Source: Bacteroides sp. (GTDB lineage: Bacteria > Bacteroidota > Bacteroidia > Bacteroidales > Bacteroidaceae). Taken from it: 46,413 nucleotides of DNA. The stretch spans positions 1 to 46,413 of the forward strand of contig SUXX01000011.1 of the NCBI GenBank assembly GCA_015060735.1, written 5' to 3'. A program made the translations under genes and the position numbers. The notes beneath the pieces were generated by a model. The model was not told where the DNA came from and searched no databases. It saw only the letters and a list, made by a program, of their open reading frames with translations. The stretch's first letter is position 1. Each line of letters begins with the position of its first letter. Below are positions 20,804 through 46,277 of the stretch, in pieces.

Positions 20804-20826
20804 AAAAATAATTATTTTTCATTCTT

Positions 20827-20958
20827 GTCATTCAGAACGAAACGAAGACGTGTTGTTGAACGAAGTAAAAATCTCGGTAACACCTACTTTATGTTACCGA
20901 GATTTTTCGGACAGAGTCCTCAACAACTCGTCTTTCTCCCTTCGGTCGTCTGAATGAC
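20827..20958. repeat. Dispersed nested inverted-repeat element, copy A
   Basis: Three nested pairs of arms: outer GTCATTCAG (20827-20835) with CTGAATGAC (20950-20958); middle 20845-20860 with 20920-20934; inner AAAAATCTCGGTAACA (20867-20882) with its perfect complement at 20892-20907. The stretch 20901-20934 recurs almost exactly at 46186-46218. It looks like a miniature inverted-repeat element and may also terminate the oxalate operon transcript. Confidence 0.8.
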
Positions 20959-21009
20959 ATTCGGTTTGTCGTCCACAAAGATAATACATTTATCGGACAT
21001 ACCGAAAAA

Positions 21010-21948: not shown

Positions 21949-21975
21949 AATTTTGTTTTTCTTTTATTCCCTAAC

Positions 21976-22053
21976 GTGTCATCCTGAGCAACGCGAAGGA
22001 TCTGATTACACAAATGGATGTATCCAGATTCTTCACTACGTTCAGAATGACAC
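21976..22053. repeat. Dispersed inverted-repeat element, copy B, inside oxalate operon
   Basis: GTGTCATCCTGAGCAACGCGAAGGATCTGA (first 30 bp) faces an imperfect reverse complement ending TTCAGAATGACAC at 22053, with a short loop. It can fold into one long hairpin in the oxc-AEC mRNA. Confidence 0.85.
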
Positions 22054-29733: not shown

Positions 29734-32603
29734 AACTCAAGAAACTAACCATACACAACATCGCATCCATCGAGGAAGCAATGATCGACTTTGCCAACGG
29801 TCCTTTAGCCGAGGAATCCATCTTTCTGATTTGTGGAGAAACGGGAGCAGGTAAATCGACCATTCTAGACGCCATCTGTCTGGCCTTATACAAGGATACA
29901 CCTCGCATGAAACGCACCAATCGCGAAGCCTACCAAGACCCGACCATCACTTCGTTGGACCATGTACAAACGAATGATTGTCGACAATTGGTACGTCGAA
30001 ATGCCAAGGAAGCCTGGGTAGAACTGGAGTTTGAAGACCAAGAAGAAATAACCTATACAGCTCGTTGGAGCGTGGACAGAGCACGTACCGGTAACCTGAA
30101 GAAAGCCGAATGGCAATTATACAACCACCGTACTGACGAGAGCCTACACAAGGATGCAGAGATTGAATCAACCATCCGTCGCATCATTGGGTTGGACTTC
30201 GAGCAGTTTTGTCGCACCACCTTGCTTGCTCAAGGCGAATTTACCCGTTTCCTCCAAAGCAACTCCCATGAAAAGGCCGACATCCTGGAACGATTGACCA
30301 ATACTGACATTTATTCGCAGATAGGGACACGCATCTTTGATTGTTGGAAAGAACACAAGACAAATTACGAAACACAGAAAATCAAACTGGAGCAAGTCCA
30401 TTTGCTTTCTGATGAAAAGAAAAACGAGTTAAGAAGTTCAATAACTATCAAGGAAAAAGAAATTCATGCATTACAACTCCAACTGGAAACAATGACTATC
30501 CAACTCCAATGGTTAGTTCAGGAACAACAACTGACAGACAAGATAAAAGATGCCTACCAGACGTATGAATCCACTCAAAAGGCTTTGCAATCCGATGGTT
30601 TCCAAGAAGCAGAAAAGTTGCTGAAAGATTGGGATTTATCAGCAGAAGCACGTACCCATTACCGAGAAAGCCAACGCTTGCAACAACAGTTTAAATCCGA
30701 AGAGAACGAACTTCAGGGACTAATTCACAAGATACATCTGCTCCATCCGGATTGTCCACCTAATACTCCTCTCCTTCCATTGCTTGAAAAAGAAGAAGAA
30801 GGGTATCGCCTCCATTGTCAGAAGCTTCAGCAAGCAATAGCAGTCCTTCAAACAGAGATTGCCCAACAAGAAGAACATTTAAGAGCCTGGAAACTGGAAG
30901 AAAAAGAAATCAGGAAAGAAGAACTACAGAAACAACTGGAACAATTAAAAGAATTACAGAATCGGTTCAGCCAATTGGAAGAAAAGAAGAAGCTTCAACA
31001 AGAATCAGAAGCGGAAATCAGTACTCTCCAACAACAACTCGCAAATCTGAAAGAACAATCCGAATCACTTCTAAAAGAAGTAAACGAAACGGAACAAAAA
31101 CGTCTGATGCAGGAACGCCTGGTTCTCAAGCTAAAGGAAGCTACGGAAAATTGGGCAAAAGAAGCTCGTCGGAAACTGACTGAAGGAGACCAATGTCCGG
31201 TATGCGGACAAACAATTGCTCATTTGTTCAGTGATGAAACTTTTCAGTCACAACTGGAAGGTCCGGAAAAAGAATTGGAAGAACTACGCAAACAAGAAGA
31301 TAACATTCGTAACCGGTTTAACCGTATAGTTGCCGAAGAAAACCAACATCGGCATACCTGCCAAAGAATGGTAAACAAACAACTAGAGGCACTTAAAGTG
31401 CTTCAGTCATTGCAACAGGAAATAGAAGATACCAGCAAAGCCTTACAGCTTCCGGAAGCTAGTTTAAAGACCGTAGGAACAGCTATTTCCACACGAAACG
31501 AAGAATCTGCCACCATTAGTCAAGCATTGAAATCCGGGAAGGAAATGATGCAGGCCATCGCTAACAAGCAAAAGGACACCCAACAGTTGCAACAAGTGTG
31601 GACAAAAGAAAACGAAAAACGCCATGCTTGTCGTCTACGGATTGAATCATACCACTCCCTCAACGAACAAAGCAAAGCCCTACGGAAACGTCAGGAAGCT
31701 ACACAGAGCGAAGTTAACGCCCTACAACAGAAGGTGCATACATTCGTCACTACACATCCTTCCATATCCATAGATCGCTTATGCAAACTGGTTTCGTATC
31801 CGGAAGAGAAAGTACAAAACATGCGTCAACGCATGCAGCAAACCCGGGAAGATTGTATCAAGAAAGAAACCACTTTACGAAATCTTCAAAAAGAACAAGA
31901 AGATTTCCGCAAGAAGAAGCCCCTATTCCCTCCTGAATGTACACCGTTCGGATTAAACCAACAAAAGGAAGAGGAAGAAAAGAAATTGAGACTATTATTT
32001 CAAGAAATAGGACAACTGAAACAAACGCTCCAACAAGACAACGAAGCCCGTATCCGACAAGAAAAGGAACTCAAACAATTGAAAGAAAGTTACCAGACCT
32101 ACCAGCAATGGACTCGCTTGAAAGAACTGTTCGGCAGTGCAGATGGTAAAACATTCCGTGCCATTGCCCAAAGCTTCATCTTGAAAGAATTATTGCAGAA
32201 TGCCAACTTCTATTTGAAACATTTCACTGACCGCTACCAATTGGAAGGACAAGGTATCACCCTGACCATCCTTTTACGCGACTTCTATGAAGGTGGTATC
32301 ACTCGTCCGGTGAGTACGCTATCCGGAGGTGAAAGTTTCTTGATCTCACTGGCTTTGGCTTTAGGACTTTCCTCGCTCAATCGCGAACAACTGTCCATCG
32401 CCACCTTGTTCATCGATGAAGGGTTTGGTACTTTAAGCAGTGATTACTTGCAGACAGTAATGGATACCCTCGAAAAGTTACATCAATTAGGAGGCAAAAG
32501 AGTGGGTATCATCAGCCATGTAGAAGGACTTCGTGAACGCATCCGTACACAGATTCAGGTAAGACGAATCGACAATTCACGAAGTGAAGTAGTAGTCGTT
32601 TGA
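29730..32603 (+). CDS. sbcC: Exonuclease subunit SbcC (SMC-like ATPase)
   Basis: From MKLKKLTIHN, the start that overlaps the sbcD stop, the protein has 957 residues. Walker A GETGAGKS is at 36-43, and QGEFTRFL, typical of the family, follows near residue 168. Long coiled coils flank the zinc hook CPVCGQ at 489-494. The ABC signature LSGGES is at about 864, and Walker B LFIDEGFGTL near 893. An open frame upstream (29694) would add 12 residues inside sbcD and is not needed. SbcC holds DNA ends while SbcD cuts; the pair cleaves hairpins formed by long palindromes. The gene ends inside a perfect 54-bp palindrome. Confidence 0.96.
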   Translation: MKLKKLTIHNIASIEEAMIDFANGPLAEESIFLICGETGAGKSTILDAICLALYKDTPRMKRTNREAYQDPTITSLDHVQTNDCRQLVRRNAKEAWVELEFEDQEEITYTARWSVDRARTGNLKKAEWQLYNHRTDESLHKDAEIESTIRRIIGLDFEQFCRTTLLAQGEFTRFLQSNSHEKADILERLTNTDIYSQIGTRIFDCWKEHKTNYETQKIKLEQVHLLSDEKKNELRSSITIKEKEIHALQLQLETMTIQLQWLVQEQQLTDKIKDAYQTYESTQKALQSDGFQEAEKLLKDWDLSAEARTHYRESQRLQQQFKSEENELQGLIHKIHLLHPDCPPNTPLLPLLEKEEEGYRLHCQKLQQAIAVLQTEIAQQEEHLRAWKLEEKEIRKEELQKQLEQLKELQNRFSQLEEKKKLQQESEAEISTLQQQLANLKEQSESLLKEVNETEQKRLMQERLVLKLKEATENWAKEARRKLTEGDQCPVCGQTIAHLFSDETFQSQLEGPEKELEELRKQEDNIRNRFNRIVAEENQHRHTCQRMVNKQLEALKVLQSLQQEIEDTSKALQLPEASLKTVGTAISTRNEESATISQALKSGKEMMQAIANKQKDTQQLQQVWTKENEKRHACRLRIESYHSLNEQSKALRKRQEATQSEVNALQQKVHTFVTTHPSISIDRLCKLVSYPEEKVQNMRQRMQQTREDCIKKETTLRNLQKEQEDFRKKKPLFPPECTPFGLNQQKEEEEKKLRLLFQEIGQLKQTLQQDNEARIRQEKELKQLKESYQTYQQWTRLKELFGSADGKTFRAIAQSFILKELLQNANFYLKHFTDRYQLEGQGITLTILLRDFYEGGITRPVSTLSGGESFLISLALALGLSSLNREQLSIATLFIDEGFGTLSSDYLQTVMDTLEKLHQLGGKRVGIISHVEGLRERIRTQIQVRRIDNSRSEVVVV

Positions 32604-32652
32604 TTGAAAACAGAAAGCGGAGTACGTACTCCGCTTTCTGTTTTCAATCAAA
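32599..32652. terminator. Perfect 54-bp palindrome, bidirectional terminator sharing two stop codons
   Basis: Bases 32599-32625 are exactly complementary in reverse to 32626-32652, with no spacer. It contains the TGA of sbcC (32601-32603) and, on the other strand, the TGA of the converging Gate-domain gene (32648-32650). Each direction has a GC stem (CAGAAAGCGGAG...) followed by TTTTC, so it should terminate both transcripts. Confidence 0.9.
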
Positions 32653-36731: not shown

Positions 36732-38135
36732 ATGATACATCCTTATCAAACGGACATCCGTTCCCTGGCTCTACCCGAGCTATTCACCTACCCTTTCCAC
36801 TACACGCCCCACCCGTTGTGTGTACAGGCCTCTCAGGAAGTACAGGCCTATCTGCAGTCGCGTACCGATTGGCACGATGAACTGCAACAGGGCAAGATGT
36901 TCGGTGTATTGGTAGTCCGCACGCCGGATGGCACCATCGGCTTCCTGGCCGCCTTCTCGGGCAATTTGGCCGGAAGCAACTACCACGATTATTTCGTCCC
37001 CCCGGTCTACGACCTCCTGAACCCAGACGGCTATTTCAAGGAAGAAGAAGCCCGGATTTCTTCACTCAGTGTCATTCTTCGCTCCGCTCCTCTGAATGAT
37101 ACATATCTCGAATCACTCAAAGAAGAACGGAAGAACCGTTCCATTGCCCTCCAGCAATGGATTTTCCAACAATTCCGTCTTCGCAATGCCTTGGGCGAAG
37201 AGCAAGACATCCACACCATCTTCGCCGAAACGGCCCACCGCAACCCACCTGCCGGGACAGGCGAATGTGCCGCTCCCAAGCTGTTGCAATATGCTTACCT
37301 GCATCAATTACAGCCATTGGCCATGGCCGAATTCTGGTGGGGAAACTCCCCAAAAGGAGAAATCCGCCGTCACGGACATTACTATCCGGCCTGTCGCAAC
37401 AAGTGCGAACCCATTCTTGGGTTTATGCTGCGAGGAATCGAGGTAGAGCCTAACCCGCTCCTCATTTCGAATACCGATGCTACCCAACTCGAAACCGTTT
37501 ACGAAGACGAATACTTGCTGGTGGTCAACAAACCTGCCGGCATGCTTTCCGTACCCGGAAAGACCGGTCAGGCCTCCGTACTGAGTATCCTGCAGGAACG
37601 TTATCCCGAAGCCACCGGTCCGCTATTGGTTCACCGGCTCGACATGGCCACCTCCGGCCTACTCCTTGCAGCCAAGGACAAGGATACCCATGCCCTACTC
37701 CAAAAACAGTTCGAAGGAAGAACCGTCAAGAAACGCTACATCGCCTTACTCGATGGCCTTGTTACCGGAAAGGAACCGAAAGGCTTCATCCGCCTCCCCC
37801 TCCGGCCCGACTTCGACAATCGTCCCCTGCAAATGGTCTGCTTCGAATACGGCAAACCGGCGGTTACACGTTATGAGATTATCAGTGTCATCCTGAGCGA
37901 AGCGAAGGATCTGAATACACCTCATTATACCCGCATTGCCCTCTACCCCGAAACCGGCCGTACCCACCAGCTTCGTGTACACGCCGCCCACCCTGACGGA
38001 CTGAACTGCCCCATCGTAGGCGATCCCCTCTACGGCCAACCGGCCGACCGCCTCTATCTTCATGCCGAACGATTAGAGTTCAAACATCCGGTGAGTGCCA
38101 AATACATGCACATACAAAAAGAGGCTCCTTTTTAA
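36732..38135 (+). CDS. RluA-family pseudouridine synthase with N-terminal extension and two repeat-encoded segments
   Basis: From MIHPYQTDIR it has 467 residues. Residues 1-240 are the Bacteroidetes-type N-terminal extension, including GECAAPKLLQYAYLH (177-191), AEFWWG and HYYPACRNKC. Residues 256-467 are the RluA domain: NKPAGMLSVPG, the catalytic D304 in HRLDMATSG, and TGRTHQLRVHAAHP. It should convert uridine to pseudouridine in rRNA or tRNA. Residues 113-124 and 385-394 (both beginning SVIL) are encoded by copies of the dispersed repeat. The second lies between beta strands before the conserved RTHQLRVH motif. A longer coiled-coil, as I recall it in homologues, appears shortened where the first lies. 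The ORF extension upstream of 36732 is rejected. Confidence 0.9.
   Translation: MIHPYQTDIRSLALPELFTYPFHYTPHPLCVQASQEVQAYLQSRTDWHDELQQGKMFGVLVVRTPDGTIGFLAAFSGNLAGSNYHDYFVPPVYDLLNPDGYFKEEEARISSLSVILRSAPLNDTYLESLKEERKNRSIALQQWIFQQFRLRNALGEEQDIHTIFAETAHRNPPAGTGECAAPKLLQYAYLHQLQPLAMAEFWWGNSPKGEIRRHGHYYPACRNKCEPILGFMLRGIEVEPNPLLISNTDATQLETVYEDEYLLVVNKPAGMLSVPGKTGQASVLSILQERYPEATGPLLVHRLDMATSGLLLAAKDKDTHALLQKQFEGRTVKKRYIALLDGLVTGKEPKGFIRLPLRPDFDNRPLQMVCFEYGKPAVTRYEIISVILSEAKDLNTPHYTRIALYPETGRTHQLRVHAAHPDGLNCPIVGDPLYGQPADRLYLHAERLEFKHPVSAKYMHIQKEAPF
37069..37102. repeat. Dispersed repeat copy C, in-frame in RluA-type gene
   Basis: GTGTCATTC...GAATGATAC: 34 bp with inverted ends like those of copies A and B. 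It encodes residues 113-124 of the pseudouridine synthase, between the N-terminal part and the helix beginning LESLKEER. Confidence 0.7.
37885..37914. repeat. Dispersed repeat half-copy D, in-frame in RluA-type gene
   Basis: Thirty bases from GTGTCATCCTGAGCGAAGCG to GGATCTGA, identical to the left arm of copy B except at two or three positions. It adds the peptide SVILSEAKDL to the catalytic domain without breaking the frame. Confidence 0.85.
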
Positions 38136-38313: not shown

Positions 38314-38757
38314 TTAAGCGTCCGGAATCACATCCTCTCCGCTTTCTTCACTCTCCTTCACAGCCTTCTTGGCAACTTTGCTGTAGCTGAGTTCGGTCAA
38401 CAGACCACTGAGGGCAATGCCGGGACGGAAGTTGATGCGTGCCTTGGTGATGAGCGAAGGAGTATAATCTTCTTCGGTCAACGCTCCCTTGCCGCTCAAG
38501 CCGATGCGGAAAGTGCCGAGGTCGCCCAAACGGACTATTTCGCCACTCTTCAGGGCATCAATCATCGTGTCTTCCAATGCCACCAATACAGCGTGTACGT
38601 CAGCCTTGTGTACGGTACACGTTTGTTGGATGCGTTCAGACATCTCGCGGATAGTTACATCGCCACTGGCCTGAGCCTGGGCATAATACTTCGGACTGGC
38701 GTCCTTGTCTCTCGGGTTCAATCGTGGAACCACTGAATACGTTACTGATCTTGACAT
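38314..38757 (-). CDS. HU-like DNA-binding protein (Bacteroidetes long form)
   Basis: A 147-residue HU/IHF-fold protein opening MSRSVTYSVVPRLNPRDK, the family start. SGDVTIREMSERIQQTCTVHKADVHAVLVALEDTMIDALKSG forms the helical dimerisation part, and GEIVRLGDLGTFRIGLSGKG the first strands. KARINFRPGIALSGLL completes the fold, and an acidic tail of about 20 residues ends in DVIPDA. It should bind DNA in the cytosol as a dimer, though this branch is uncharacterised. It is divergent from the DUF4248 gene across 250 bp and precedes the smalltalk gene. Confidence 0.9.
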   Translation of the reverse strand: MSRSVTYSVVPRLNPRDKDASPKYYAQAQASGDVTIREMSERIQQTCTVHKADVHAVLVALEDTMIDALKSGEIVRLGDLGTFRIGLSGKGALTEEDYTPSLITKARINFRPGIALSGLLTELSYSKVAKKAVKESEESGEDVIPDA

Positions 38758-38764
38758 AATAGTT

Positions 38765-38799
38765 TATAAATGATAGTTAATAAATGATAAATGATAGTT
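38765..38799. repeat. AT-rich leader repeat, left copy
   Basis: Contains AAATGATAG two to three times, in the leader of the HU-like gene. It is the reverse complement of the right copy at 38972-39004, so both divergent transcripts begin with nearly the same leader. Confidence 0.65.
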
Positions 38800-38832
38800 G
38801 CCTTCCGGACGGCAATTCTTCATTTTCTAAGA

Positions 38833-38840
38833 CAAAGATA
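38833..38840 (-). promoter_or_regulatory. -7 element for HU-like/smalltalk transcript
   Basis: The - strand reads TATCTTTG, a perfect match, 76 bp upstream of the HU-like start. Confidence 0.6.
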
Positions 38841-38956
38841 CAGCGGCTTAAAACGTCATTGTCGGGGCTTGAAGAGAATGGTAAAGAATGGTCTGGCAAT
38901 GTAGAGAATTGTCAGTATTTTCCCTTGAAAATCAAGGAAATATACCGATTTTTTTG

Positions 38957-38964
38957 TATATTTG
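38957..38964 (+). promoter_or_regulatory. -7 element for DUF4248 gene
   Basis: TATATTTG matches TAnnTTTG, 46 bp upstream of the GTG start. Confidence 0.55.
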
Positions 38965-38971
38965 TACAAAC

Positions 38972-39004
38972 AAACTATCATTTATTAACTATCATCTATC
39001 ATTT
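38972..39004. repeat. AT-rich leader repeat, right copy
   Basis: AACTATCATTTATTAACTAT and the following bases mirror the left copy at 38765-38799. It forms most of the DUF4248 mRNA leader. Confidence 0.65.
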
Positions 39005-39010
39005 AAAACA

Positions 39011-46132: not shown

Positions 46133-46246
46133 GTGTCATCCTGAACACTGTGAAGGATCTGAGTACACAAACGTAACGGTATTCAGATTTTTCGGACAGG
46201 TCCTCAACAACTCGTCTTCACTTCATTTTATTACGCTCAGAATGAC
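46133..46246. repeat. Dispersed inverted-repeat element, copy E, between wzz and gmd
   Basis: Begins GTGTCATCCTGAACACTGTG and ends CTCAGAATGAC, with inner arms GGATCTGAGTAC and GTATTCAGATTTTTC. Bases 46186-46218 match 20901-20934 of copy A almost exactly. It is inside a likely operon. Confidence 0.8.
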
Positions 46247-46277
46247 TAATAAATAAAATCTTTTCAATAGGAAAGAA

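Follow-up and report, generated by a model that had tools for sequence, protein, structure and literature searches.

Two loops of an RluA-type pseudouridine synthase in Bacteroides sp. are probably translated from remnants of a dispersed palindromic element

We analysed a stretch of 46,413 nucleotides from a Bacteroides sp. assembly (contig SUXX01000011.1; hereafter the window), which carries a gene for an RluA-family pseudouridine synthase on the forward strand at 36732–38135. Translation from the ATG at 36732 yields a protein of 467 aa, in which the PseudoU_synth_2 catalytic domain (PF00849) spans residues 261–420 (37512–37991, forward strand, E 5e-31); TIGR00005 matched the synthase at 160.6, below its cut-off of 192.7. 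Site 1 (37068–37103, forward strand) encodes residues 113–124, SVILRSAPLNDT, with S113 starting at 37068, and contains at 37069–37102 (forward strand) a repeat remnant in which a left end is fused to a right half. Site 2 (37884–37922, forward strand) encodes residues 385–397, SVILSEAKDLNTP, with S385 starting at 37884; it comprises a left half-element and the start of the spacer, encodes the peptide SVILSEAKDL and lies within PF00849 directly before RTHQLRVH. Both repeat starts share one reading frame of the synthase. An earlier inspection of the DNA without database searches (the sequence-only reading) had described two SVIL-type peptides (SVILRSAPLNDT and SVILSEAKDL) in a shared frame, the second inside the catalytic domain before RTHQLRVH, and the coordinates, the translation and the extent of PF00849 all agree with that description. 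In an alignment to 2i82, the window protein has additional residues at site 2. Searches against Rfam at gathering cut-offs returned nothing in the window. Elsewhere in the window, a perfect, spacer-less 27-bp inverted repeat between convergent ORFs (32599–32652) is possibly a terminator, and AT-rich inverted repeats lie approximately 170–195 bp apart at 38756–39008 (TTATAAATGATAGTT...).

Site 2 harbors an exact 26-mer of a dispersed repeat (GTCATCCTGAGCGAAGCGAAGGATCT, 37887–37912, forward strand, 0 mismatches). In the genome that contains the window (G000, 2.45 Mb, 96 contigs, 80.9% complete), this 26-mer was found at 72 places with up to 3 mismatches, itself counted (42 forward, 30 reverse), and the reversed-pattern control gave 0 matches, which confirms the second stretch as a copy of the repeat. 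Degenerate patterns identified 154 half-units in G000, or 163 if A was allowed at one stem position (reversed control, 0). Rescanning up to 1.5 kb on either side of all 72 places, plus the window, yielded 115 half-units grouped in 69 elements; 107 of the 115 matched the degenerate pattern with 0 or 1 mismatch, as compared to 163 genome-wide, so that gene placement as given below covers about two thirds of the copies. Simple head-to-head (+−) pairs accounted for 43 of the 69 elements and one further pair was part of a triple, giving 44 pairs, whose usual form (27/44) is a 79 bp head-to-head pair GTGTCAT...ATGACAC. Half-units follow the pairing scheme ATCCT-GA-GC-NNN-GC-GA-AGGAT, with a stem of 5 bp, G.A/A.G mismatches and then 2 bp, and a loop of 3 bases. 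Among the 115 half-units, the first two stem pairs are A-T (n = 111) and T-A (n = 106), pair 11–17 is G-C (n = 70) or A-T (n = 45) and never mixed, and pair 6–22 is C-G (n = 61), T-A (n = 47) or other (n = 7). The stem thus shows covariation. A G/C-type half is joined to an A/T-type half in 37 of the 44 pairs, the TGTC end tag is present at 44/44 left and 42/44 right ends, and the tail is mostly CTG, with CTC in CAG-type copies. Extension of the palindrome into the flanks did not significantly exceed that of shuffled sequences (mean 0.76 vs 0.51, p 0.064).

The window itself contains, on the forward strand, the three intergenic copies that had been placed near 20827, 21976 and 46133. The element at 21974–22053 is complete, a head-to-head pair with a spacing of 48 and a DNA fold z of −3.4. 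Its long relative at 20826–20962 has an added inner palindrome (DNA fold z −9.8), and the element at 46133–46248 has a long right half, the fold of 46133–46245 being like that of shuffles (z 0.2). Folded as single-stranded DNA, site 1 was weakly better than shuffles (z −1.9) and the single half-element of 30 nt in site 2 was no better (z −0.55). The elements at 20826 and 21974 are missing from the syntenic places of a related genome, G175, and one G175 copy is without match at the corresponding place of the window. No clean target-site duplication was seen, the syntenic empty places in G175 being too diverged. The repeat had no match in phages at E 1e-5; one element relative each, 78–81% identical, is present on the plasmid records OY725989.1 and OY725998.1 of Phocaeicola massiliensis.

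The repeat lies mostly between genes, and two loops of the synthase are encoded by copies of it. An ORF with a total flank of 100 aa or more spans seven of the 69 G000 elements (nine ORF rows); judged by reading these ORFs, a single element (1/69) is internal to a conserved gene, namely the one at site 2 of the synthase, and the others fall in N-termini, doubtful ORFs and one C-terminus. At locus L162 (G000:C45:3002-3027), the repeat encodes the C-terminal end (CHPEQSEGSGNK) of a protein judged TtcA-like by eye. In the related genomes G172 and G174, 58 distinct elements were present in 60 loci (of 88 and 120 matches, respectively), 18 of them within ORFs that have 80 aa or more of flank; clearly internal among these 18 were the G172 elements in the RluA gene and in a BT4734/VapE-like protein. 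Several repeat-spanning ORFs of G174 and G176 (e.g., L193, L202, L301) looked spurious by eye and were excluded from the gene counts. Repeat DNA also occurs in the N-terminal region of two S41 peptidases (L205, L219) and a member of the endonuclease/exonuclease/phosphatase family (L189), where it may supply part of the signal peptide, e.g., RSFATLWMTILLTFLLPSC, the starts of these genes being uncertain.

Site 1 resembles the repeat less directly. An ungapped search matched 19–20 of 26 bases, within the range of shuffles, and a gapped comparison to 97 distinct half-elements matched 23/23 bases with one 3-nt gap and a score of 39, as compared to a maximum of 26 over 300 shuffles; the earlier suggestion that this stretch is a half-copy is borne out by this score. 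A chance match as source of the sites is ruled out by the gapped score and by the 26-mer control of 0. The left end of site 1 (GTGTCATTCT) meets the right half at ATTCT. The arm ATYCT is present once per half, on the same strand, and the distance between the two arms is 48 bp in 27 of the 44 pairs and a multiple of three in 30; with arms mostly 48 bp apart, a slippage deletion there would therefore keep the frame. In the lineage of the window, slippage probably shortened a formerly full site 1 element, whose arms contain two ATTCT direct repeats between which the deletion would have occurred; this step we infer. At site 2, just the left half of an element remains. The homologue P0008 retains the left part (SVILNEVKNDTYLES) and the window the right part (SVILRSAPLNDTYLES) of site 1, and the two are, judged by these peptides, possibly reciprocal trims of one element.

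To place the sites in the RluA family, we built a tree from 430 core columns with the sites left out, including all 120 homologues listed of at least 7990 scored and 20 proteins from loci (140 in total). The sequence-only reading had placed the first stretch where homologues have a longer coiled-coil. A coil is indeed present in 15 tree proteins, all with 102–105 aa at site 1 and with a repeat-like peptide at neither site, and is absent from the remaining 125, which includes the clade of the window, a clade that appears to have lost it; site 1 thus looks like a trimmed element that sits in place of the missing coil rather than an insert into the coil. By regular expressions that were composed after reading the sequences, site 1 was classified as short (n = 80), coil (n = 15), left+right (n = 25), left (n = 10) or right (n = 10), and site 2 as none (n = 92), left (n = 31), CCCC-like (n = 11), left+right (n = 4) or right (n = 2). 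The minimum number of state changes on the 140-protein tree is at least 21 for site 1 and at least 15 for site 2, an evidence of turnover that is largely at protein level and mostly from metagenome proteins, with DNA seen for five clade genomes. Turnover in this clade is fast at both sites: proteins P0039 and P0090, with 99.5% identity in the core, are distinguished at site 1 by an element-like peptide that has both halves. Among homologues, the two sites are thus found empty, with a full element, with a left or a right half, or filled by an unrelated family, in line with the earlier proposal of a tolerated peptide insert in coding DNA. Had the peptide been native to the protein, distant relatives should carry it; site 2 was readable in 79 of 80 relatives, of which two matched a loose peptide pattern by chance, both with loops of ordinary length, and a native ancestral peptide at site 2 was rejected.

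At DNA level, G000, G175, G174, G176 and G172 each have an in-frame palindrome at site 1, site 2 or both. Site 1 holds an identical right-half remnant in G000 and G175, elements with both halves in G176 and G172, and in G174 (L117; G174:C84:61540-61578) a perfect 18-bp inverted repeat that is read in frame and of which a search of 8 genomes, allowing up to 2 mismatches, found no further copy. Site 2 holds the left half in G000, an element read partly in a different frame in G174, CCCCCTTACGAAGGGGG in G176 and no insert in G172; G175 has a possible short remnant, GTCATTCAG. The same sites are filled in sister genomes by a CCCCCTTNNGAAGGGGG palindrome family or a single-copy inverted repeat. Site 2 is also empty in 458-aa proteins, whose loops, like that of G172, resemble outgroup loops. 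The genomes G178, G201 and G140 have 104, 81 and 45 repeat matches, respectively, yet are without a repeat-like peptide at site 2, and copy load alone therefore does not predict insertion; the G178 synthase has the coil, and the match spacing in G201 and G140 fits a coil.

The CCCCC palindrome family and the REP-like repeat are unrelated in sequence. The former is itself dispersed: G176 has 102 matches and G172 has 30, with many places scored once per strand, and the six further genomes in the search had none; the reversed control gave 1 match, in G181. Thirty G176 stretches around CCCCC places contain 34 CCCCC elements, of which four are internal to long ORFs, namely RluA site 2, the VapE-like gene and two paralogues; a fifth ORF over a CCCCC element (L301) looked spurious. 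In the two paralogous long ORFs (L277:933-3101, L278:1679-3982), elements of the family of approximately 99 bp lie in frame (IPLVKGGGGC...PLPPSEGG), and the one paralogue that was profile-tested had a sub-threshold BT4734-like_N match only (21.7 vs 22.4 bits).

The BT4734/VapE-like (primase-like) gene (L226:477-2639 in G172, L252 in G176, L253 in G174) has one variable linker loop, placed between QCEI-WK and ITDRDENT, which at DNA level contains the REP in G172 and a CCCCC palindrome in G176 and is empty in G174. In G176, this gene and RluA are on one contig. In an alignment of 121 sequences, made up of the G172 protein and 120 listed of 300 homologues, patterns composed after seeing the alignment identified 15 sequences with REP-like peptides (EILRYALND, QILRDAQDD) and nine with CCCCC-like ones (PLHKG, PPCEGG); the segment is at most 34 aa long in 73 of 121, and the others have different fillings. 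We tentatively propose, as a possibility that we ourselves regard as doubtful, that a few Phocaeicola loops (RluA sites 1 and 2 and the linker of the BT4734/VapE-like gene) are shared landing sites of unrelated palindromic families, that palindromes as such, rather than the sequence of any one element, are inserted or retained there, and that turnover is rapid enough for near-identical genes to differ.

Shared loops could arise in more than one way. They may be true insertion hot spots, to which hairpin-directed copying or the local DNA or transcription state attracts palindromes, beyond mere tolerance by the protein. This would account for the REP in site 2 of G000 and G174 as opposed to CCCCCTTACGAAGGGGG in G176, for the single-copy 18-bp inverted repeat in site 1 of G174, for the REP, CCCCC and empty states of the primase-like loop in G172, G176 and G174, and for the sole conserved-gene-internal case among 69 G000 elements falling in a gene that bears a second remnant. 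Selection alone could, however, produce the pattern, as insertions elsewhere in genes would be lost, and the 69 elements are about two thirds of the copies; we consider hot spots rather unlikely. Alternatively, each site may go back to one ancestral element that was varied locally through trimming, duplication and conversion, with no repeated insertion. Many site 1 variants, short ones included, begin like the left end of the element (N/S-V-I-L), and P0008 and the window could represent reciprocal trims, but the CCCCC family shares no sequence relationship with the REP, and site 2 is empty, with outgroup-like loops, in G172 and the 458-aa proteins. This explanation is conceivable, with the balance of probability against it. 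A study on Rickettsia japonica (PMC3767692) prefers divergence from a single ancestor as the origin of the different coding palindromes at a site and leaves hot spots possible; it also reports that RPE-4, -6 and -7 alternate in the same genes of different species.

Two further explanations concern the fate of the peptides. The synthase gene is under purifying selection: dN/dS outside the sites was 0.07–0.19 in the nine of 15 pairs that were computable (five clade genes and one outgroup), synonymous sites being saturated in the other six pairs and near saturation in several of the nine. Judging by these values, the inserts probably leave the enzyme active. RluA is known to modify 23S U746 and tRNA position 32. 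The peptides or mRNA hairpins might have been co-opted, altering enzyme activity or mediating autoregulation of an RNA-binding synthase, and PMC3733652 lists pseudouridine synthase genes of other bacteria among the hosts of intragenic REPs; turnover in several reading frames and the empty alleles in relatives speak against this, and we regard co-option as improbable. Removal or bypass of the insert before the mature protein would fit the mere occurrence of palindromes in coding DNA. All orthologue rows listed in a genus search were without inside stops and their inserts keep the frame, which points the other way; the protein database, which could have shown stop-free forms alone, was not counted against removal or bypass, an explanation to which we give very little credence. 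Least credible of all is an assembly artefact, even though the G000 assembly is fragmented and incomplete, because the 95% identical protein P0002, from a separate record, carries the same site 2 peptide and G175 has identical site 1 DNA.

Both stretches very probably derive, in our judgement, from a palindromic element that is dispersed and apparently non-autonomous, and of which they are remnants translated as tolerated loop peptides. Identity with the repeat, its dispersal, the covariation of its stem, its in-frame reading, the differing states in close relatives and the purifying selection on the gene are direct observations. A TGTC-tagged REP-like unit, usually an approximately 79-bp head-to-head hairpin pair, would have entered two permissive loops of the synthase, where its peptide would be made and tolerated in the manner reported for Rickettsia palindromic elements; we infer this mobility, the slippage, the actual translation of the peptide, and loop tolerance as the explanation of the sites.

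A mobiliser was searched for in several ways. A RAYT-type transposase (PF01797) was detected in none of 11 repeat-bearing genomes, G000 included, nine of which are less than 90% complete, and RAYT is therefore not needed in each present host. Among 151 genomes of the family, 10 of the 19 with any repeat match and 44 of the 132 lacking one had a Y1 match (Fisher p 0.13), which is compatible with a RAYT link as well as with none. Four stretches in which copies are neighbours, inspected by eye for an IS bearing the element ends, had no obvious transposase.

CGTC/TGTC-like REPs that behave like Rickettsia palindromic elements are, by comparison of features, the best reading of the class of the element. 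With the CGTC REP superfamily, the repeat shares the TGTC tag variant, the A/T first two stem pairs and the predominance of head-to-head dimers; the superfamily has stems of 8–9 bp, loops of 4–5 bases and the tail CCA, whereas the present repeat has 5 bp plus mismatches plus 2 bp, a 3-base loop and the tail CTG or CTC. PMC3733652 further states that CGTC repeats occur in Bacteroidetes too, that CGTC REPs have no dedicated transposase, and that different REPs lie near the same recB site in two Xanthomonas species. Rickettsia palindromic elements, which are covered in a review (PMC10969869), are similar in that the palindrome is intergenic as well as in frame in conserved genes, has ATGAC ends and is represented by different groups in one gene across species. 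They differ in their hosts, the present one being Phocaeicola-type and not of the Rickettsiales or Wolbachia, and in that here an unrelated palindrome family occupies the same loops and states differ between near-identical proteins. GTAG REPs with RAYT likewise form paired palindromes, some of them intragenic, but none of our 44 pairs has a GTAG end and no RAYT-type gene was detected in the 11 genomes. The repeat is short, terminally inverted and dispersed like MITEs, yet a clean target duplication was not seen and a partner transposase was not found.

Coding REPs and RPEs are already known; what is new is that unrelated families occupy the same loops, in two genes, and that turnover sets near-identical proteins apart. 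In the literature searched, which covered few subscription papers, we came across no description of coding palindromes from Bacteroidales. Annotators should bear in mind that, in this group, repeat DNA can encode peptides resembling SEAKDL, CHPERSEGS and ILRSALDD. Bacteroides are genetically tractable. The origin of coding palindromes, one ancestor or hot spots, becomes testable in relatives of Bacteroides, and if the proposed sharing of loops is true, these genes would be a natural assay for it.
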